From NCBI GenBank assembly GCA_017480445.1, contig JAFVAO010000032.1:1-38195 (forward strand): DNA of 38,195 bases. Reading direction: 5' to 3'. Each line of letters opens with the position of its first letter. The stretch's first letter is position 1. A program made the position numbers and the translations under genes. This document shows positions 8,337-34,182 of this stretch, one piece after another. This stretch comes from Lachnospiraceae bacterium. Its GTDB lineage: Bacteria > Bacillota > Clostridia > Lachnospirales > Lachnospiraceae. The notes under the pieces are model-generated. The model did no database searches, was not told the DNA's origin, and saw only the letters and a program-made list of their open reading frames with translations.

Positions 8337-9200
8337 TTATTCGCCGCAGGCGAGCCGTTTGATGGTCGCCATCGCTTTCCTGACAGGCGGCAGCAGCAGG
8401 ATCACCACCGTGACAGCAGCCTCCGCAAAGATATAGATCGCGTTGTAGACGAGGGAGTACGGAAGTGCGCCCCAGCCGTCCCACGCATAGGTGCCGAAGA
8501 AGAGATAGCCGGAGAGTACGGCAAAGGCGTACCGGCCGACCACGGCCACTGTGTAGCCCCGGATCAGATTATCTTTTACAACAAAACCGATGACGATTAC
8601 GGTCACATAGAGTATAATGAATAAGATCGCGAACAGCAGGTTGTAGTTTAAGGACGATTCACTGTCAATTGGATTGGAAAAAAGGAATAAGCCGGACAGC
8701 ATGGCGAAAATATACCCGATTCCGGTGGACACAATGTAATTCTTGACCTTGCTGCCGTCGGATTTCGCGAACAGGCCGGAGAGACCGAGCGCGCCGAAGG
8801 CGAGGATGTAATCTACCACGAGCTGTGTCGGATACAGGATATACGGATCGATCAGCATCTGCAGAATACCGTAGGCGACACCGGTCAGGATGCCGACGCC
8901 CGCGCCGAACCAATAGCCGGGCAGACAGACTGCCAGCATGGAGAGCAGTGTGATGGAACCGCCGGTGGGAAAGTGGAACAGTTTGACATAGGACAACAGT
9001 GTGCCGAGCGCCAGACACATCGCGCAAAAAGCAAGCTGCTTGGATGTGAGCTTCAGCGTGCGCTTACCGGTGTGCTTGCCGGCGAGTACCACGGCCAGTC
9101 CCAGCAGTGCGACGATCAGAATGACGAGCAGGATTTTGCCCGCCAGTGTAGGGACGTAGGTTGTTTCGCCCCAGTCATTGACAACTACATTGTAAAGCAT
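8337..9200 (-). CDS. thiT: Energy-coupling factor thiamine transporter S component ThiT
   Basis: A 287-residue multispanning membrane protein, the substrate-binding S component of an ECF transporter for thiamine. After an N-terminal membrane helix (about 20-41) comes the ThiT core: KLFHFPTGGSITLLSMLAV, a loop GAGVGILTGVAYGILQ, then YPTQLVVDYILAFGALGLSGLF, and near the end RYAFAVLSGYLFFGTYA and YSLVYNAIYIFAEA. The ThiT family is usually nearer 180-200 residues. Here there is an N-terminal extension and an insertion of about 50 residues in the middle that adds membrane segments. The ECF ATPases and T component are not in the window and must be shared from elsewhere. The TPP riboswitch upstream independently supports thiamine as the substrate. 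This is the only minus-strand gene. Confidence 0.9.
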   Translation of the reverse strand: MLYNVVVNDWGETTYVPTLAGKILLVILIVALLGLAVVLAGKHTGKRTLKLTSKQLAFCAMCLALGTLLSYVKLFHFPTGGSITLLSMLAVCLPGYWFGAGVGILTGVAYGILQMLIDPYILYPTQLVVDYILAFGALGLSGLFAKSDGSKVKNYIVSTGIGYIFAMLSGLFLFSNPIDSESSLNYNLLFAILFIILYVTVIVIGFVVKDNLIRGYTVAVVGRYAFAVLSGYLFFGTYAWDGWGALPYSLVYNAIYIFAEAAVTVVILLLPPVRKAMATIKRLACGE

Positions 9201-9228: not shown

Positions 9229-9239
9229 GACACAAAGAG

Positions 9240-9337
9240 GTTGCCTTCCTACGCCGGTATTATCCGGTTCAGGTAGTGAGGGTCAGAAGAAACCGCGCGC
9301 GGCGTCTTCAATCTCAGCGATGTGCTCCCCTGGCGAT
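9240..9337 (-). ncRNA. TPP riboswitch (THI element)
   Basis: Read on the minus strand, the conserved TPP aptamer blocks appear in order: GGGGAGC, CTGAGA (complement of 9312-9317), a variable P3 stem-loop, GACCC, ACCTGA (complement of 9269-9274), CCGGATAATACCGGCGTAGG, then GGC. It lies between a strong promoter and the terminator/SD hairpin of thiT. TPP binding is expected to turn thiT off. The ends given are approximate because the P1 stem is short. Confidence 0.93.
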
Positions 9338-9353
9338 CATTATTTTTGTATCT

Positions 9354-26659: not shown

Positions 26660-26755
26660 GGGAATGAAGAAACCGATAGGTCTTGCGCTTCGATACGATT
26701 TATGGGAATATAAGTATAGTTTTCAGTATGTATTGTGTGGAAGGAATCGGGTTCG

Positions 26756-27145
26756 ATGGAAAATAAAGCGGATTTTACACAGGGAAGTATCCCGAAAAAG
26801 CTGATGGGATTTATGCTGCCGATCCTGGGGGCACTGGTGCTGCAGTCTATGTACAGCGCGGTAGACCTGATGATTGTCGGACAGTTCGGCACGACGGAGG
26901 GGATATCCGGCGTGTCCACAGGAACGGGCATCCTGCAGCTCTTTACCTTCGTGATGGTGCAGGGACTAATCCAGTCGTTTCTGATCCGGCTGCCGGTGTC
27001 GTATTTGCTGAGTATACGGGAGAATGCGTCGCTTGCGGGACTCGGTCTGGCAGCGTCTTCCGCGACGGTGATCGGGATTGTGATCTGCGTGGGCTACTAT
27101 TTATATCTGGAGAAATATTGCTATTTTTCCTCGAGTTGTATATAA
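26756..27145 (+). pseudogene. MATE-family transporter remnant with internal deletion
   Basis: A 129-codon open frame made of the two ends of a MATE efflux transporter. Residues 1-62 (ENKADFTQGSIPKKLMGFMLPILGALVLQSMYSAVDLMIVGQFGTTEGISGVSTGTGILQL) are the usual N-terminus. From about 65 on, TFVMVQGLIQSFLIRLPVSYLLS and the rest match the penultimate part of the family, about 320 residues further along. The joint lies near 26944-26955 and keeps the frame. A MATE protein needs about 450 residues and twelve helices, so this product should not transport. GGAAGGAA at 26740-26747 still provides an RBS for the ATG at 26756. Loss of function is inferred. Confidence 0.85.
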
Positions 27146-27199: not shown

Positions 27200-27850
27200 A
27201 TGGAAATGTCACAGGATTTGCGGAGTATGATCGGCAACAATGAAACGGTGCTCTGGGCGGGAAAGCCGGACATGAAATGTTTTATACTCGAAGGGATTTT
27301 CAATCCCATGCTGCCGTTTGCGTTGATCTGGTTTTGCGTTGATGCGTTTGTTGCCGGAGGGGCACTTTTTGCAAGTAGCGGTGAAGGCTTTCAGATAGCG
27401 TTTTTCCTGATTCCGTTCCTGCTGATACATATGATGCCGGTGTGGATCTATCTGGGTGGATGCCTGTTTATATTTCGAAAATACAGAAACACAGAGTATG
27501 CGATCACCGATAAGGCAATTTATACAACCGGCGGAATGTTTACCAAAAACTTTGAGATGAAACCGTTTGCGGAACTCTCACATGTGACGATCCACCGCGG
27601 TATTTTTGACCAGTGGCTGGGTGTTGGCGATGTGAATACGGTATGTGAGCATATCAGTCATAATCACAACGGGAATCGTGCCGGACATGGTATGAATCTC
27701 TGTGATCTGCGGGATTACAATAAGGTGTTCAATATGATAAAACAGCTGCAGCAGGATATTTACTCGGATGTGATGTATCCCAATGCGATGCGGCCGGAGC
27801 AGAATCCGGGATATAATACGCAGTATACGGGAGTGAACCGCTTCCGCTAA
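27200..27850 (+). CDS. Bacterial PH-domain (bPH2/YdbS-like) membrane protein
   Basis: A 216-residue protein with two membrane helices at about 30-58 and 66-92. They are followed by a bacterial pleckstrin-homology-like domain: FRKYRNTEYAITDKAIYTTGGMFTKNFEMKPFAELSHVTIHRGIFDQWLGVGDVNTV (about 93-150). The pattern NTEYAITDKAIY...L..V.I..G..D...GVGDV is characteristic of the bPH2 family. The N-terminus carries MIGNNETVLWAGKPD, also typical. The function is unknown; such proteins sit in the membrane and may serve as scaffolds. GGGGAGGA at 27184-27191 is the RBS. Confidence 0.88.
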   Translation: MEMSQDLRSMIGNNETVLWAGKPDMKCFILEGIFNPMLPFALIWFCVDAFVAGGALFASSGEGFQIAFFLIPFLLIHMMPVWIYLGGCLFIFRKYRNTEYAITDKAIYTTGGMFTKNFEMKPFAELSHVTIHRGIFDQWLGVGDVNTVCEHISHNHNGNRAGHGMNLCDLRDYNKVFNMIKQLQQDIYSDVMYPNAMRPEQNPGYNTQYTGVNRFR

Positions 27851-27868
27851 ATAGAGTGCGGTGTGATA

Positions 27869-27895
27869 CGGGAGACAGACGCGGTCTGCCTCCCG
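27869..27895 (+). promoter_or_regulatory. Stem-loop between PH gene and GTPase-NYN gene
   Basis: CGGGAG-A-CAGAC (27869-27880) pairs with GTCTG-C-CTCCCG (27884-27895) with one mismatch and a 3-nt loop. There is no T-run. It may slow transcription, stabilise the upstream message or act in the leader of the GTPase gene 50 bp downstream. Confidence 0.5.
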
Positions 27896-27944
27896 CATGC
27901 GTTATGGGTACATATGGTGTCATCTGACAGACGAAAGGATATCT

Positions 27945-30653
27945 ATGGACGAAAAGAGACTGACAATCGGTATTTTGGCACATGTGGATGCAGGAAAGAC
28001 CACGTTGGCGGAATGTATGCTGTATCAGAGCGGCCAATTGAAAAAGATGGGACGCGTGGATCATCAGGATGCGTTTCTGGATCATTTCGCGTTGGAGCGG
28101 TCGCGCGGGATTACGATTTTTTCCAAGCAGGCGAGACTGCGGTGGAAGGAGATGGAGATCACGCTGCTGGATACGCCGGGGCATGTGGATTTCTGTGCGG
28201 AGATGGAACGGACGCTGCAGGTGCTGGACTACGCGGTTCTGGTGATAAACGGCACGGATGGTGTGCAGGGGCATACAAGGACGCTGTGGAAGCTGCTCGC
28301 ATACTATGCGGTGCCGGTTTTTATTTTTGTAAATAAGATGGATCAGGAGACGGCAGGGGAGGCTGCACTGATGCGGCAGCTGAAGGAGAAACTGGATGCC
28401 GGTTGTGTCTGCTTTCACGGCGCGTATACGCGGGAAGAGCCTGCGCGGGAAGGCGATGGCGCGACCGGTGCGGACTGGCAGGAGGAGCTTGCCACCTGTA
28501 GTGAGGAACTGATGAATTGTTATCTCGATACGGGAGAAATCCCGCAGGAGCTGACAGCACAGGCGATTGCCGACAGAAAGGTGTTTCCCTGCTATTTTGG
28601 CGCGGCGCTGCACGGGAAGGGCGTGGAGGAGCTGCTGGACGGATTGGAAGCCTATGGTATGATGCAGGAGTACGGGCAGGCGTTCGGTGCGCGCGTCTAT
28701 CAGATCGCAAGAGACAATGCAGGGTGTCGGCTGACACATCTGAAGATTACGGGCGGCAGTCTGCGGGTAAAGGCGATGATTGACAATCACGCCAGCGCGG
28801 GAAGCGAGGAGGAACGGTTTGCGGAAAAGGCGGACCAGATTCGTCTGTACAACGGAACGGGGTATGTGCTTGCAGAGGAGGTGGCGGCCGGCGAGATCTG
28901 CGCGGTGACCGGACTGGAACACACCTTTGTCGGACAGGGGCTTGGCTGCGAATCGGAGAATGCGCAGGCCGTGCTGGAGCCGGTGCTGACGTATCGCGTG
29001 GAGCTGCCGGAGGGAACGGATGCGATGAAGGCGCTCGGCGTGTTTCGGGTATTGGCCGAGGAGGAGCCGCTGCTGCATGTGATCTGGCAGGAGGAGAAAA
29101 AAGAGATTCATGTGCAGGTCATGGGAGAGGTGCAGATCGAGGTGCTGCGCGCAATCCTGTGGGAACGATTTGGCCTGGAGGCCGACTTTGGCGAAGGCAG
29201 TATTGTGTATAAGGAGACGCTGACGGAACCGGTGATCGGTTACGGTCATTTTGAGCCGCTCAGGCACTATGCGGAGGTGGAACTTCTGCTGGAGCCGGGA
29301 GAGCGGGGAAGCGGGCTGCAGTTCGCCAGTCTCTGCAGTGAGGATGTGCTGGACCGCAATTGGCAGCGGCTGATTCTCACCCATCTGGAGGAGCGGGTGC
29401 ATGTGGGTGTGCTCACCGGTGCGGCGATCACGGATCTGCGGATTCTGCTAGTGGCCGGACGGGCGCACAGCAGGCACACCGAGGGCGGAGATTTCCGGCA
29501 GGCGACCTACCGCGCGGTGCGGCAGGGGATGCGCAGCGGCAGCAGTATGTTGCTGGAGCCGGTGTTTGCCTATACATTGGAGGTGCCCACGGAATGTCTG
29601 GGGCGCGCAATGTCAGATATACAGCGGCTGCACGGCAGTTTCGAACCGCCGGTGACGGAAGGGGATCACAGTGTGCTCACCGGCAAAGCGCCGGTGGCGA
29701 CGATGCGGGGATATGCGAGGGCGGTCAGCGCCTACACCCATGGCAACGGACATCTCTCCTGTGTGCCGGATGGCTATGCACCCTGCCATAACGCCGAAGA
29801 GGTGATTTCGACAGCGGCGTATGATCCGGAGGGAGATCTTGCAAATCCTACGGGTTCGGTCTTCTGTGCGCACGGCGCAGGATTTGTAGTGGAGTGGAAC
29901 CGTGTGCCGTCGTACGCGCATGTGGTGGTGCCTGCGGAGATCCGGAGACTTGTGGAGAGACAGGAAGCAGGCGGTGCGGATGCGGTATCCGGTGCAGACG
30001 GATTGGGGACTGCGCCGGGGGCGGCGCGGGTGAGTCAGACCGGTTCGGCCGGCGGAGAACGCTATGTCACGCAGGAGGAGATTGAGGCGATCTTTCGGCA
30101 GACCTACAGCAGGCGGGAAAAGGACGAGCGCTCCCGCAGAAGATATCACATCACACATCGGGACACTGGCCGGAACGATTCCCGGACCGCAGGCGGGGCG
30201 CGGCCAAGCAGCAAACAAACGCCTTCGAAAAGTTGCCTTTTGGTGGATGGATACAACATCATTTTCGCCTGGGAGGAGCTGCGCAGACTTTCGGTGGACA
30301 ATATGGACAGCGCCAGAGACCGGCTGCTGGACATCATGAGCAATTATCAGGGAACCCTGGGCGGCGAGTTGATCGTCGTGTTCGATGCGTATAAGGTGAA
30401 GGGGAATCCCGGGAGCGTGATGAAGTATCACAACATTTATGTGGTCTATACCAAAGAGGCGGAGACGGCGGATCAGTATATCGAAAAAACAGTGCACGAG
30501 ATGTCGAAAGATTACCGGATCACGGTGGCGACGTCGGATGCGCTGGAGCAGATGATTATCTGGGGGGACGGGGCGCTGCGGATGTCCGCGGGCGGACTGT
30601 ACGAGGCAGTGGAGCAGAATATGGAGATGCTGCGTAGGGACTATATGGGGTAG
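27945..30653 (+). CDS. Tet(M)/EF-G-like GTPase fused to a Rae1/YacP-type NYN nuclease domain
   Basis: A 902-residue fusion. Residues 1-700 form a ribosomal-protection-type GTPase: G1 AHVDAGKTT (12-20), G2-like RGIT, G3 DTPGH (76-80), G4 NKMD (130-133), then EF-G domains II-V with a Tet(M)-like domain IV. A Gly/Ala/Arg-rich linker (about 700-762) follows. Residues 763-902 form an NYN domain like B. subtilis YacP/Rae1: LLVDGYNIIFAWEEL with Asp768 and Asn771, VVFDAYK with Asp814, and VATSDALEQ with Asp865, the acidic set of PIN/NYN nucleases. Rae1 is a ribosome-associated mRNA endonuclease cutting in the A site. AAAGGA at 27934-27939 supports the ATG at 27945. Tetracycline resistance should not be assumed. 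The frame is continuous, with no sign of a misassembly junction. Confidence 0.9.
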   Translation: MDEKRLTIGILAHVDAGKTTLAECMLYQSGQLKKMGRVDHQDAFLDHFALERSRGITIFSKQARLRWKEMEITLLDTPGHVDFCAEMERTLQVLDYAVLVINGTDGVQGHTRTLWKLLAYYAVPVFIFVNKMDQETAGEAALMRQLKEKLDAGCVCFHGAYTREEPAREGDGATGADWQEELATCSEELMNCYLDTGEIPQELTAQAIADRKVFPCYFGAALHGKGVEELLDGLEAYGMMQEYGQAFGARVYQIARDNAGCRLTHLKITGGSLRVKAMIDNHASAGSEEERFAEKADQIRLYNGTGYVLAEEVAAGEICAVTGLEHTFVGQGLGCESENAQAVLEPVLTYRVELPEGTDAMKALGVFRVLAEEEPLLHVIWQEEKKEIHVQVMGEVQIEVLRAILWERFGLEADFGEGSIVYKETLTEPVIGYGHFEPLRHYAEVELLLEPGERGSGLQFASLCSEDVLDRNWQRLILTHLEERVHVGVLTGAAITDLRILLVAGRAHSRHTEGGDFRQATYRAVRQGMRSGSSMLLEPVFAYTLEVPTECLGRAMSDIQRLHGSFEPPVTEGDHSVLTGKAPVATMRGYARAVSAYTHGNGHLSCVPDGYAPCHNAEEVISTAAYDPEGDLANPTGSVFCAHGAGFVVEWNRVPSYAHVVVPAEIRRLVERQEAGGADAVSGADGLGTAPGAARVSQTGSAGGERYVTQEEIEAIFRQTYSRREKDERSRRRYHITHRDTGRNDSRTAGGARPSSKQTPSKSCLLVDGYNIIFAWEELRRLSVDNMDSARDRLLDIMSNYQGTLGGELIVVFDAYKVKGNPGSVMKYHNIYVVYTKEAETADQYIEKTVHEMSKDYRITVATSDALEQMIIWGDGALRMSAGGLYEAVEQNMEMLRRDYMG

Positions 30654-30735: not shown

Positions 30736-33201
30736 GTGATGAACTCGATCAAGAGGATATTCTTGCAGGGAAAGGAATTGCATAAGGGACGGCTGGCAGC
30801 GGGAATTGTTCTCTTTGTGGGAATTTTGTTGTACTTGTTCGGGACGGATGTACTTCGGGAGGAGCGCGTCAATTATCACACCGGCGAGGGGGCACAGGTG
30901 CAGGTGCTCTCGGATCAGAATGCGGAGTGGAGACAGACGTTTGTCCCTGCCTTCAGGCAGCTGCAATCGTTGAGTCTGCTGTTGGATCTGGAGACGGTCA
31001 GCCAGACAGACGGGGAAGTACACATTGTAGTGTCGGATCAAGTGGATACGATCTTGTTTCAGAAGGCGCTTTCGTTTGCGGAGCTCGCTGACGGGCGGTT
31101 TACGGACGTAGAGGTAAATCTTTCATTGTACACCGATGAAATCTACTATATAGATCTCTTTTTTATTCCGTCCTCTGCACAGGAATATCCTGAGCTGTAT
31201 GTATGTGATAAGGCGTATTATTTGCCGGAGAATCAGAAGCTGCTGTTTTTTGATGACGGCACATCGTATGATACGGGCGATCTGCAGTTGGTGTCAAGAT
31301 ATGTATATACGGATGTGCTTCCGGTCAGGAAAGCGGTCAAGGTGCTGTTTCTTGTGCTGTTGCTGGCGGTAGGTGTAGTGTATGGACTGCCGCAGAATCG
31401 GTGGATCCGCATTGCCGCCGTTGCAGCGCTGTTTCTGGCGGGTCCTTATGTTCTGGGAAGACGCTTGGAGCTGTTAACCTATAACGAAATGTATTATCTC
31501 CCGATGGCTATGCGCTGGAATGTGGGGATTATGTATGTCATAGAGTTGTTGCTGCTTCTGCTGACCCATTCGCCCAGGTTCTCTGTCGTTTTGATGAATG
31601 TGGGTATGACGCTGCTTTATTCGGCCAATTACTTTGTCAATATTTTCAGGGGAGCGCCTTTGCGCACAGGAGATTTCACCGCGATCGGAACGGCCGTGAA
31701 AGTGGCCGGCAACTATGACTTTCAGCCGAATGATCATCTGGCGTTTGTGTGGCTGTTATGCACAATTCTGGTGGTGTTCGCAGTGCAAACGAAGCATCCG
31801 TCGTCAGACACAGGGGCAAAAGAGGATCAAACGAAGAAAAGAACGGTCAGGAAAATTGCGTTTTATCTGGCGACGGGTGTGTTGGCGATTGCACTTGGAA
31901 GGGGTGCGCTCTATCTGCTGATCGATACGGATCTGCTGAGACAAGCTGGATTTTCGGATGAAAAAGAGCTCAAAGGAATTAACAGCAACCTGATCTATGC
32001 ATTTGACGGTTATTTGATCGGAAGCTGTATTGATTACAGAAGTACAAGGATCGAGCCACCGCAGGGTTATTCGGCCGGCCGTGTCAAGGAGATCCTGCAG
32101 CCGTATGAAACGGAACAAATGCTTTCCGATGCGGAGAAGGAGCAGCTCCCGCATGTGATTCTGATTATGAACGAAAGTCTGGCTGATCTGCGGGTATACG
32201 GAGAATTGGAACTGAATCAGGAATATCTGCCCTTTCTGAATGCACTGTCAGAGAACACGATCCGAGGTTACACCAATGTGTCGGTGTTTGGAGGAGGAAC
32301 GGCTAATTCAGAGTTCGAGGTGTTGACCGGATGCAGCACGGCGCTGCTCCCGACAGGATATTATCCCTATCAGCAGGGCATCAACGCAGCCAAGAATTCC
32401 ATGGTCAGTCAGTTTGAAAAGTACGGATATACGACATGGGCGATGCACCCTGCACCCAAAACAAACTGGAGCAGAGGAAAAGTATACGGTCTTTTGGGAT
32501 TTGATCAGACACTCTGGAAACAGGATTTTGAAGGAGCGGAACGGATCCACAGCGGTGTATCGGATCAGGCGACTTACGACAAGATTATCTCGCTTTACGA
32601 GGCGCGGCAGGCGGGGGAGCGCATGTTTGTATTCGATGTTACGATACAAAATCACGGCGGATATAACCGCCATGAGGTTCCCTACGCGATACAGGCGCAG
32701 AATGTGGTAAGTCCTGCGTTGGATGAATATCTGTCTGCCGCGTACAAATCGGATCAGGCTTTTGAGAATTTGCTTGCTTATTTTGAGAAGCAGGAGGACA
32801 AAGTAGTGATCTGTATGTTTGGAGATCATCATCCGTTTGTGACAGATCTCTTGCCTGCGAATACGGCGAACGGATCGCTGACCAAGGCGGAACAATATAT
32901 GAACCGCTATAAAACGCCATTTGTGATCTGGGCGAATTACGATATTGCGGAAGCGTGCGATCTGGATATCAGTGTCAATTATCTGGGCGGTTTGGTGATG
33001 GATACGGCGGGCGTGCCTCTGTCTCCGTTTTTTGCGTTTCTGCAGGAGCAGGAAAAAGCATACCCGATTGTGACGGTCAATGGCTATGTGGATGCAGCGG
33101 GAACACTGTATAACTGGGACGGGGAGGATGTTTTTTCATCCTACAGAATGCTGCAATATAATTTTCTGTATGATGATCGCAATTTTAAATGGGCATATTA
33201 G
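30736..33201 (+). CDS. LTA synthase-like sulfatase-family membrane protein (paralogue 1)
   Basis: An 821-residue membrane enzyme of the LtaS/phosphoglycerol transferase type. There is an N-terminal helix (about 17-36), then an extracytoplasmic beta-rich insert (about 40-195), then four or five more helices (about 205-400). The sulfatase-fold catalytic domain (about 465-770) has metal ligand Glu480 in IMNESLADL, nucleophile Thr522 in GGGTANSEFEVLTG, and Asp697-His698 in MFGDHHP. LtaS proteins move glycerol-phosphate from phosphatidylglycerol to a growing chain; the exact polymer here is unknown. The insert between the first two helices is not found in classical LtaS. GGAGG at 30723-30727 lies 8 nt before the GTG at 30736; the ATG at 30739 is a close alternative start. 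Confidence 0.87.
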   Translation: MMNSIKRIFLQGKELHKGRLAAGIVLFVGILLYLFGTDVLREERVNYHTGEGAQVQVLSDQNAEWRQTFVPAFRQLQSLSLLLDLETVSQTDGEVHIVVSDQVDTILFQKALSFAELADGRFTDVEVNLSLYTDEIYYIDLFFIPSSAQEYPELYVCDKAYYLPENQKLLFFDDGTSYDTGDLQLVSRYVYTDVLPVRKAVKVLFLVLLLAVGVVYGLPQNRWIRIAAVAALFLAGPYVLGRRLELLTYNEMYYLPMAMRWNVGIMYVIELLLLLLTHSPRFSVVLMNVGMTLLYSANYFVNIFRGAPLRTGDFTAIGTAVKVAGNYDFQPNDHLAFVWLLCTILVVFAVQTKHPSSDTGAKEDQTKKRTVRKIAFYLATGVLAIALGRGALYLLIDTDLLRQAGFSDEKELKGINSNLIYAFDGYLIGSCIDYRSTRIEPPQGYSAGRVKEILQPYETEQMLSDAEKEQLPHVILIMNESLADLRVYGELELNQEYLPFLNALSENTIRGYTNVSVFGGGTANSEFEVLTGCSTALLPTGYYPYQQGINAAKNSMVSQFEKYGYTTWAMHPAPKTNWSRGKVYGLLGFDQTLWKQDFEGAERIHSGVSDQATYDKIISLYEARQAGERMFVFDVTIQNHGGYNRHEVPYAIQAQNVVSPALDEYLSAAYKSDQAFENLLAYFEKQEDKVVICMFGDHHPFVTDLLPANTANGSLTKAEQYMNRYKTPFVIWANYDIAEACDLDISVNYLGGLVMDTAGVPLSPFFAFLQEQEKAYPIVTVNGYVDAAGTLYNWDGEDVFSSYRMLQYNFLYDDRNFKWAY

Positions 33202-33216: not shown

Positions 33217-34182
33217 ATGGTCTATTATTTTGGATTCATGCAAAACAACAGTCTGATTGCGGCTGTCGGCATTGTATTTGCCTTTGCGGCAACGATTCTG
33301 GCGACAGCAAAGTTGTGTTCGTATTTGCCGAAGGACGGGGGACGGGAGTTTGCACATGACGGAAAACTGTCGGCGGGAAAACCCCGAGGGGCGGGAATTA
33401 TATTTGTGCTCGCGTTTGTCCTTTCGACGATTGTTTTTTTCCCTTTGCAGCCGGAACTGCTGATCTATCTGGTGCTGCTTACCTTGTGCATGCTGACCGG
33501 TTATCTGGACGATGCGGCAAAGGTTCCGTGGGGAGAGTATAAGAAGGGATTTTTGGATTTTTGTATTGCGCTGCTGACGGCGATGACTTACTTGAAATAT
33601 AATCCGGCTGTTGTGGAACTCGCATTTTTTCATGTGAAGTTTGTGCTGCATCCGGCGCTGTTTGCGGTGCTGGCTGTGATTCTGGTCTGGGTATCCGTGA
33701 ACGTGACAAACTGTGCGGATGGTGTGGACGGGCTGTCGGGGACACTGGCCATTGTGACGCTGGTGACGATCTATCTGATCGACCGTATCAAGGGACGGTC
33801 GGATCATTTTGCCTATGCGATTCTTCTGTTCGTGGTCTGCATTCTGGGGTACCTGTGGTTCAATGCGACGCCGAGTAAACTGATGATGGGCGACGCCGGC
33901 AGCAGGGCGATGGGATTGTTTATCAGCATTGCGATCCTGAAGACGGGATGTCCCGTGCTGTATATTCCGGTGGCAATCGTGCTGATTCTGGATGGCGGTC
34001 TGGGACTGATCAAGGTTTCACTTATTCGGTTTTTAAAAATTCATATTATGAAAAATATCCGCACGCCGCTGCATGATCATGTGCGCAAGGTGTGGGGATG
34101 GTCCAATACACAGACGGTCTTTCGGTTCGCAATCATTCAAATCATGATTGCGGTTGCCGTCGTGTACGGCATACAGATTTGA
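33217..34182 (+). CDS. mraY: MraY-type phospho-MurNAc-pentapeptide transferase
   Basis: A 321-residue polytopic membrane enzyme of the MraY/WecA superfamily, which transfers a sugar phosphate from a UDP-sugar to undecaprenyl phosphate. Signatures: LPKDGGREFAHDGKLSAGKPRGAG near the N-terminus, YLDDAAKVPWGEYKKG with the metal-binding Asp pair, VTNCADGVDGLSGTLA, MMGDAGSRAMG, and the C-terminal HDHVRKVWGWSNTQTVFRFAI. The GWSNTQTVFRF ending and the KPRGAG motif fit MraY (lipid I synthesis) better than WecA/TagO. This is a lone mraY, not in a division cluster, next to two LTA-synthase-like genes. A teichoic-acid linkage role therefore cannot be fully excluded. It follows paralogue 1 by 15 bp with GAGGAG at 33202-33207. 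Confidence 0.8.
   Translation: MVYYFGFMQNNSLIAAVGIVFAFAATILATAKLCSYLPKDGGREFAHDGKLSAGKPRGAGIIFVLAFVLSTIVFFPLQPELLIYLVLLTLCMLTGYLDDAAKVPWGEYKKGFLDFCIALLTAMTYLKYNPAVVELAFFHVKFVLHPALFAVLAVILVWVSVNVTNCADGVDGLSGTLAIVTLVTIYLIDRIKGRSDHFAYAILLFVVCILGYLWFNATPSKLMMGDAGSRAMGLFISIAILKTGCPVLYIPVAIVLILDGGLGLIKVSLIRFLKIHIMKNIRTPLHDHVRKVWGWSNTQTVFRFAIIQIMIAVAVVYGIQI

Follow-up and report, generated by a model that had tools for sequence, protein, structure and literature searches.

A GTPase-NYN fusion protein as a candidate replacement for stand-alone Rae1 in gut Clostridia

One gene of the window (the whole 38,195-nucleotide stretch of Lachnospiraceae DNA that was analysed) encodes a protein in which an EF-G/Tet-type GTPase (residues 1-662) is followed, after a variable linker, by an NYN domain of the Rae1/YacP type. 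With modest confidence, this fusion can be regarded as the lineage's own Rae1, that is, the A-site mRNA endonuclease, now carried C-terminally on an EF-G/Tet-like GTPase in place of the free enzyme. Judged by sequence, a single protein carries intact GTPase and nuclease-site motifs, yacP has been lost from its usual slot, and the Rae1 tail has been eroded; ribosome binding, the order of events, the coupling to GTP and the substrate of the fusion are what we infer. Rae1 has been described as a ribosomal A-site endoribonuclease whose action depends on translation (PMC6613710) and has been proposed to enter stalled ribosomes (PMC10100781), and Tet-type proteins and EF-G are reported to occupy overlapping binding sites on the ribosome (PMC8161019). 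The features of the gene are as follows.

27945..30653, + strand: fusion gene of 902 amino acids, GTPase-linker-NYN, stop included (ORF reading, profile matches)
27935..27939, + strand: AAGGA, which probably serves the ATG at 27945 as ribosome-binding site (inferred from the upstream sequence)
27957..28649, + strand: G domain, residues 5-235, with the motifs AHVDAGKTT, DTPGH (His80) and NKMD (domain match, alignment)
28977..29192, + strand: EF-G domain III, residues 345-416 (domain match)
29199..29537, + strand: EF-G domain IV, residues 419-531, the most conserved segment (domain match, alignment)
29457..29498, + strand: loop III of domain IV, residues 505-518, GRAHSRHTEGGDFR instead of the Tet-type loop YYSPVSTPADFR (alignment)
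29550..29792, + strand: EF-G domain V, residues 536-616 (domain match)
29784..29930, + strand: C-terminal extension, residues 614-662, with invariant Cys614, Cys641 and His659 (alignment)
29976..30227, + strand: low-confidence linker, residues 678-761, varying in sequence and length (predicted model, alignment)
30072..30107, + strand: short linker helix, residues 710-721, consensus ELExIFxRTYG (alignment; model confidence only about 50)
30231..30650, + strand: Rae1/YacP NYN domain, residues 763-902, with the Rae1 C-terminal tail mostly absent (profile match, alignment)

The architecture proposed in the first-pass annotation is confirmed by domain profiles: the window protein matches the NYN_YacP profile at 156.6 bits against a curated cut-off of 24.6, and the EF-G-like domain order of Tet(M)/Tet(O)-type proteins is present. 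That annotation had named the absence of an NYN fold at 763-902 as evidence against itself; such a fold is predicted there, and the modelled domain agrees with the solved Rae1 fold. The fusion ORF is separated by 94 bp from the ORF upstream, a scan for promoters and terminators around it stayed at chance level with none upstream of the start, and no tRNA or Rfam RNA was found nearby; an attenuator or leader was rejected on the gap and the scan. An antisense ORF (27729-29402, - strand) was judged a shadow frame. The fusion has no conserved operon partner, the most frequently shared neighbour occurring in 17 of 81 fusion loci (a count in which many flanks are short and the neighbours were named by eye).

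Several other features of the window and its relatives may be recorded here. An ORF of 136 amino acids at 26735-27145 (+ strand) reads by eye as two MATE transporter ends joined, without a Pfam match, and MATE-like genes, again named by eye, lie near the fusion in 17/81 loci. Downstream of the fusion are a sulfatase-fold (LtaS-like) protein (30736-33201, + strand) and a family-4 glycosyl transferase (33217-34182, + strand), neither with an apparent link to it. A TPP riboswitch (9229-9341, - strand; 60.4 bits) lies upstream of an ORF (8337-9200, - strand) that by eye resembles a ThiT-type membrane protein gene, an ordinary arrangement.

Conservation was assessed using an alignment of 109 full-length fusions (106 distinct sequences, rich in Lachnospiraceae). 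Asp768, Asn771, Asp814, Asp843 and Asp865 of the NYN domain, together with His80 of the GTPase, are invariant in all 106 distinct fusions, and in a more diverse set the five NYN residues are kept in all 54 fused and all 29 stand-alone rows; we take these Asp/Asn residues to be the catalytic residues of Rae1/YacP. These residues give no sign of the nuclease-dead C-terminus that the first-pass annotation had also named as evidence against itself. The earlier claim of intact nuclease-site residues is thereby upheld, as is that of a ribosome-type GTPase: the G motifs and EF-G domains are found, the P-loop, the switch I RGIT, DTPGH and NKMD are at least 98% conserved across the 109 rows, and by its motifs the GTPase part belongs to the translational GTPases (EF2 family). 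Mean identity to the window protein is highest in domain IV (0.77) and the NYN domain (0.66), against 0.54-0.59 for the other EF-G domains, 0.47 for the C-terminal extension and 0.21 for the linker. The high conservation of domain IV and of the NYN domain argues for selection on both ends of the protein, and since domain IV is the decoding-centre probe in EF-G and Tet(M), its top identity argues that selection is strongest there. Loop III reads H-x-x-HTEGGDFR in 106/106 distinct fusions, and in the subfamily's stand-alone GTPases the loop stays close to HTEGGDFR, with small changes. Cys614, Cys641 and His659, which follow domain V and may form a metal site, are present in 106/106 distinct fusions and in 12/12 stand-alone subfamily members (L135-L145 and L153, leaving aside the more distant L146). 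Within the stretch 690-763, whose length ranges from 55 to 107 residues across the aligned fusions, Glu712 is invariant in all 106 distinct sequences, and the helix around it could be a docking element.

The first-pass annotation had suggested searching for the same fusion across Lachnospiraceae and held that restriction to one assembly would weigh against it. The fusion is in fact found in many assemblies and reaches beyond that family into further families, orders and classes within the phylum (a named case is Monoglobus, of the Monoglobales). The best 80 of 541 relatives are the same GTPase-NYN fusion, and among 61 relatives surveyed, fusions occur in the window's genus as well as in other families of the order. 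An assembly artefact was rejected, the fusion being present in many independent genomes. In a sample of 147 genomes of the class, where a fusion was scored as a YacP domain in a frame of 700 amino acids or more, 100 genomes contain a YacP domain: 53 fused, 46 stand-alone and 1 split. In 53/53 of the fused genomes the GTPase lies beside the NYN domain on the same contig (tables compared by eye), and in none of them is there a second YacP match over the cut-off. (In one genome, G293, a second, weak YacP match below the cut-off is not included in the class-sample list.) An order sample of 137 genomes gave a YacP domain in 122, of which 48 are fused, 72 have only a stand-alone form and 2 have frames of middle length. 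The phylum sample of 249 genomes gave matches in 136, with 16 in frames over 850 amino acids, a count that excludes a 714-residue frame below the cut-off (G349) and frames of 269-349 residues (G535, G504, G356, G557); 11 of these 16 lie outside the class, and all 7 that were fetched are GTPase fusions.

Before the fusion the two parts were probably not obligate partners. With at most 8 GTPase candidates scored per genome, and with second matches and rows at or below 37% identity (other subfamilies and the tet type) dropped, only 4/46 class-sample genomes with a stand-alone YacP also have a GTPase of the subfamily, and 4 have the GTPase but gave no YacP match; this weak co-occurrence before fusion argues that GTPase and YacP need not go together. 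Within the window's genus, five genomes (G017, G019, G020, G024, G033) gave no YacP match, and in two of them (G019, G033) the GTPase part is still present. In L160 (G123), from the window's own family, GTPase (654 aa) and YacP (190 aa) are separate genes, and the YacP has no rlmB or sigma gene nearby, as might be expected of a relocated copy or of a split; in L147 (G059) the GTPase frame is interrupted (243+454 aa), and in G220 there are a 588-aa GTPase frame and a 351-aa NYN frame, either of which cases may reflect decay or a sequencing error.

Insight into the origin of the fusion comes from the position of the stand-alone gene. Stand-alone yacP follows rlmB in 13/15 loci and precedes a sigma-factor gene in 14/15, and curated models confirmed these neighbours as RlmB and SigH, the ancestral order being rlmB-yacP-sigH (the labels mrnC, which has no NCBIfam match, and cysS were given by eye). 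In unfused genomes with a YacP domain, yacP lies beside the sigma gene in 10/10 loci fetched. The fusion sits elsewhere, among other neighbours, and in 14 of the 17 fused genomes examined the slot is empty, rlmB leading directly to the sigma gene; in the remaining 3/17 a partial yacP is found beside the sigma gene (G085, G056 and G037, the last with no rlmB found within the stretch examined). G149 and G167, which belong to the genus of G085, each have an intact stand-alone yacP in addition to the fusion (in G149 the fusion is cut by a contig end), and in the NYN tree the two stand-alone copies are united by a long branch (0.81). Together these states suggest a progression from duplicate through decay to loss. 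Against such a progression are four genomes with neither a fusion nor a yacP beside the sigma gene (G057, G048, G047, G017; loci L204, L207, L210, L213). (The sigma-gene survey covered 61 genomes, of which 46 gave a match and 15 none; 30 of the 46 loci were fetched.) A profile search of the window's genome recovered one YacP domain; with this genome at 83% completeness and no rlmB slot located in it, a second yacP is still conceivable. In G034, the best match among the whole genomes of the relatives surveyed (68% identical), the slot is empty (L224). The best reading of these gene arrangements is that the fusion replaced stand-alone Rae1 in the fused lineage, where it would usually be the sole Rae1 copy in many gut Clostridia.

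The fused domain also differs from the free enzyme at its C-terminus. All 29 stand-alone rows compared have a tail of 49-54 residues with a terminal Arg motif, whereas the window protein has 22 residues from Ser881 on, lacking the Arg motif. In the diverse set only 7/54 fused rows keep the Arg-motif tail and 20/54, the window protein included, are much shorter; the rule was set after inspecting the tails, and a simpler one gives 9/54 kept. In the Lachnospiraceae-rich set the tail is kept in 44/106 distinct fusions. Likewise, the match reaches Pfam position 159 of 166 or beyond in 46/46 stand-alone domains vs 19/52 fused ones (leaving out the contig-edge G246 and the split G220; Fisher's p for this comparison ignores relatedness), and tail state changes only 6 times on the GTPase tree. 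In B. subtilis Rae1 a change in the tail, the suppressor R166P, is reported to behave as a loss of function (PMC6613710). The tail may thus help free Rae1 to dock and become dispensable once the GTPase docks.

In a quick tree with two tet-type rows and one long EF-G-like outgroup, the fused GTPases all fall into a single clade (SH-aLRT 99), next to the stand-alone GTPases and apart from the tet-type rows (L101, used as EF-G comparator, is itself a divergent paralogue of EF-G-like type). This single clade argues that, on the GTPase side, one fusion event is likely. The NYN tree, whose root is not fixed, is less simple. It places two stand-alone rows on the fused side and requires 3 changes of state (bootstrap trees give 2-3, none of them 1), and the fused NYN rows form one group in 0% of 200 bootstrap trees.

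Within the best reading, the fusion is a housekeeping A-site factor whose GTPase has taken over docking for the Rae1 mRNA endonuclease. The GTPase would bind ribosomes whose A site is open or blocked, and its domain IV, bearing an invariant loop III of its own, would be placed in the decoding centre; after GTP hydrolysis domain IV would withdraw from the A site, and the NYN domain, tethered by a flexible linker of ~55-107 residues, would enter the freed site and cut the mRNA, after which trans-translation could clear the ribosome. (SmpB is present in the window's genome.) Because domain IV and Rae1 would compete for one A site, sequential action is favoured, with the GTPase first and then the nuclease. 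The shared site, which would make simultaneous action impossible, counts against this explanation in that a hand-off must be assumed; the poorly conserved linker, which fits a mere tether, counts against it as well. So do the weak association of GTPase and YacP before fusion, the unfused genomes with no yacP beside the sigma gene, the fusions that keep the tail, the NYN tree and the five genomes of the window's genus that gave no YacP match. The nuclease may be delivered to stalled or drug-bound ribosomes with GTP hydrolysis as timer, as had been suggested earlier. A more specific proposal, which is tentative and to which slightly less than even credence is given, is that of a GTPase-driven no-go-decay factor: it would recognise a block in the A site, clear it, and hand the site to the tethered Rae1, which would cut the A-site codon, with GTP ordering the steps and the tail dispensable after fusion, and in many gut Clostridia it would be the principal source of Rae1 activity, with part of the genes currently annotated as tetracycline resistance.

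An alternative, which seems unlikely but has some evidence in its favour, is that the two proteins are independent and share one chain merely for dosage or co-expression, the nuclease acting as free Rae1 does and the GTPase having its own task. The variable, low-confidence linker would be as expected for such a tether, and stand-alone GTPases of the same subfamily occur without YacP. A free NYN product is also conceivable: in the window, partial Shine-Dalgarno sequences accompany GTG codons in frame at residues 649, 654 and 670, the first two of which could give such a product, and further starts with a partial Shine-Dalgarno sequence are found inside the NYN domain at 779 (CTG) and 784. Between residues 641 and 790 of the window protein no in-frame ATG precedes 787, which is already inside the NYN domain, and a Met occurs within the linker in 39/106 distinct fusions; an internal start may exist but is not conserved. 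The single clade of fused GTPases and the long retention of the fusion across families, the erosion of the Rae1 tail, and the invariant Glu and conserved helix within the linker all argue against simple tethering.

Another alternative, and one that appears quite improbable, is antibiotic protection, in which the GTPase would displace tetracycline or another A-site drug while the nuclease cleared mRNA on drug-stalled ribosomes, a view close to the suggestion by Atkinson 2015 of resistance through RNase activity (PMC4342817). Consistent with it, tet_protect is the top NCBIfam match (residues 7-611), and a relative from Agathobacter rectalis is labelled a TetM-family resistance protein by NCBI. 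Yet the window protein scores 413 bits against the tet_protect cut-off of 775, and 265 against 1100 for tet_protect_M_W, and its loop III reads HTEGGDFR rather than SPVSTPADFR; the tet-type genes L148 and L149 have YYSPVSTPADFR there, and Pro509 of this loop in Tet(M) is reported to overlap tetracycline (PMC7456112, PMC8161019). The triple change S508A/P509A/V510A is reported to leave Tet(M) active (PMC4750697), so the loop of the fusion is evidence, not proof, against resistance. In addition, the fusion GTPase lies outside the acquired-tet clade of the quick tree, tet-type genes of 643-644 residues coexist with the fusion in 4/53 fused class-sample genomes (G061, G205, G217, G307), and no neighbour is common to more than 17/81 fusion loci. 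A match was found in 978 of 72,556 plasmid records; no more than 2 of them contain at least 80% of the fusion protein, on replicons of 252 kb and 518 kb typed as non-mobilizable, and 13 of the 15 plasmid matches listed cover the GTPase part only. NCBI naming of the two plasmid matches at or above 80% is divided between TetM-family resistance protein and 'translation factor GTPase family protein'. The A. rectalis relative at NZ_CP143948.1 24767-27568 is annotated as tetracycline resistance, a label that is possibly misleading; plasmids of Ligilactobacillus salivarius (NZ_CP097640.1 and others), outside the Clostridia, carry genes with the label TetM-family resistance that match the GTPase part only (residues 4-659 at 46% identity).

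The non-Tet loop III, the sub-cut-off score, the separate clade, the coexistence with tet-type genes and the replacement of yacP agree with the first-pass judgement that a housekeeping role is likelier than resistance, and the fusion's job is probably to cleave mRNA on stalled ribosomes and not to confer drug resistance. It is very doubtful that the NYN domain instead processes rRNA or tRNA with the GTPase as a ribosome-assembly factor: such maturation was once proposed for YacP-NYN domains (Anantharaman and Aravind, as cited in PMC4342817) and would fit the ancestral linkage of yacP to rlmB, but Rae1 has since been described as an mRNA A-site nuclease (PMC6613710, PMC10100781) and the best-conserved segment of the fusion is domain IV, the decoding-site probe of EF-G and Tet proteins.

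The earlier interpretation as a whole is thus partly supported, the exception being its remark that it was aware of no earlier account of the fusion. Atkinson 2015 reports YacP-NYN domains on Tet proteins in ten Clostridiales species (PMC4342817), so that the architecture has been known since 2015, before the 2017 work on Rae1. In the literature searched, whose coverage leaves out key Rae1 papers, the fusion was found described only in that article, as far as its available text goes, and no description was found of the yacP replacement, the tail erosion or the loop III comparison. Should the best reading hold, a translational GTPase and mRNA cleavage would be coupled within one enzyme in a large group of gut bacteria, and GTPase-controlled mRNA decay on the ribosome would become approachable in a single polypeptide, with unfused sister genomes as natural controls. 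Some commensal 'TetM-family tetracycline resistance' genes, such as that of Agathobacter rectalis, may then be a housekeeping factor that inflates resistance-gene counts.

In comparison with known systems, the Tet-NYN proteins of Atkinson 2015 have the same architecture, a Tet-type GTPase with a YacP-like NYN domain in Clostridiales; the RNase was read there as a possible resistance mechanism, whereas a housekeeping role is preferred here, and the Tet class of that study, in the text available, takes in more than the Tet(M)/Tet(O) criteria applied here (PMC4342817). Rae1/YacP of B. subtilis (PDB 5mq8, 5mq9) is a free protein of about 170 residues, encoded beside rlmB (yacO) and ending in a C-terminal tail; the fusion differs in being on a GTPase, elsewhere in the genome and with its tail eroded. 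Tet(M) and Tet(O) share with the fusion the EF-G-like domain order and a C-terminal extension, but the fusion is unlike them in loop III, clade, sub-cut-off score, the Cys/His set of the extension and the fused nuclease. The stand-alone GTPases of the subfamily (L135-L145, L153) resemble the fusion in loop III and in the Cys614/Cys641/His659 extension and differ from it in having no NYN domain, with frames of 655-729 residues.
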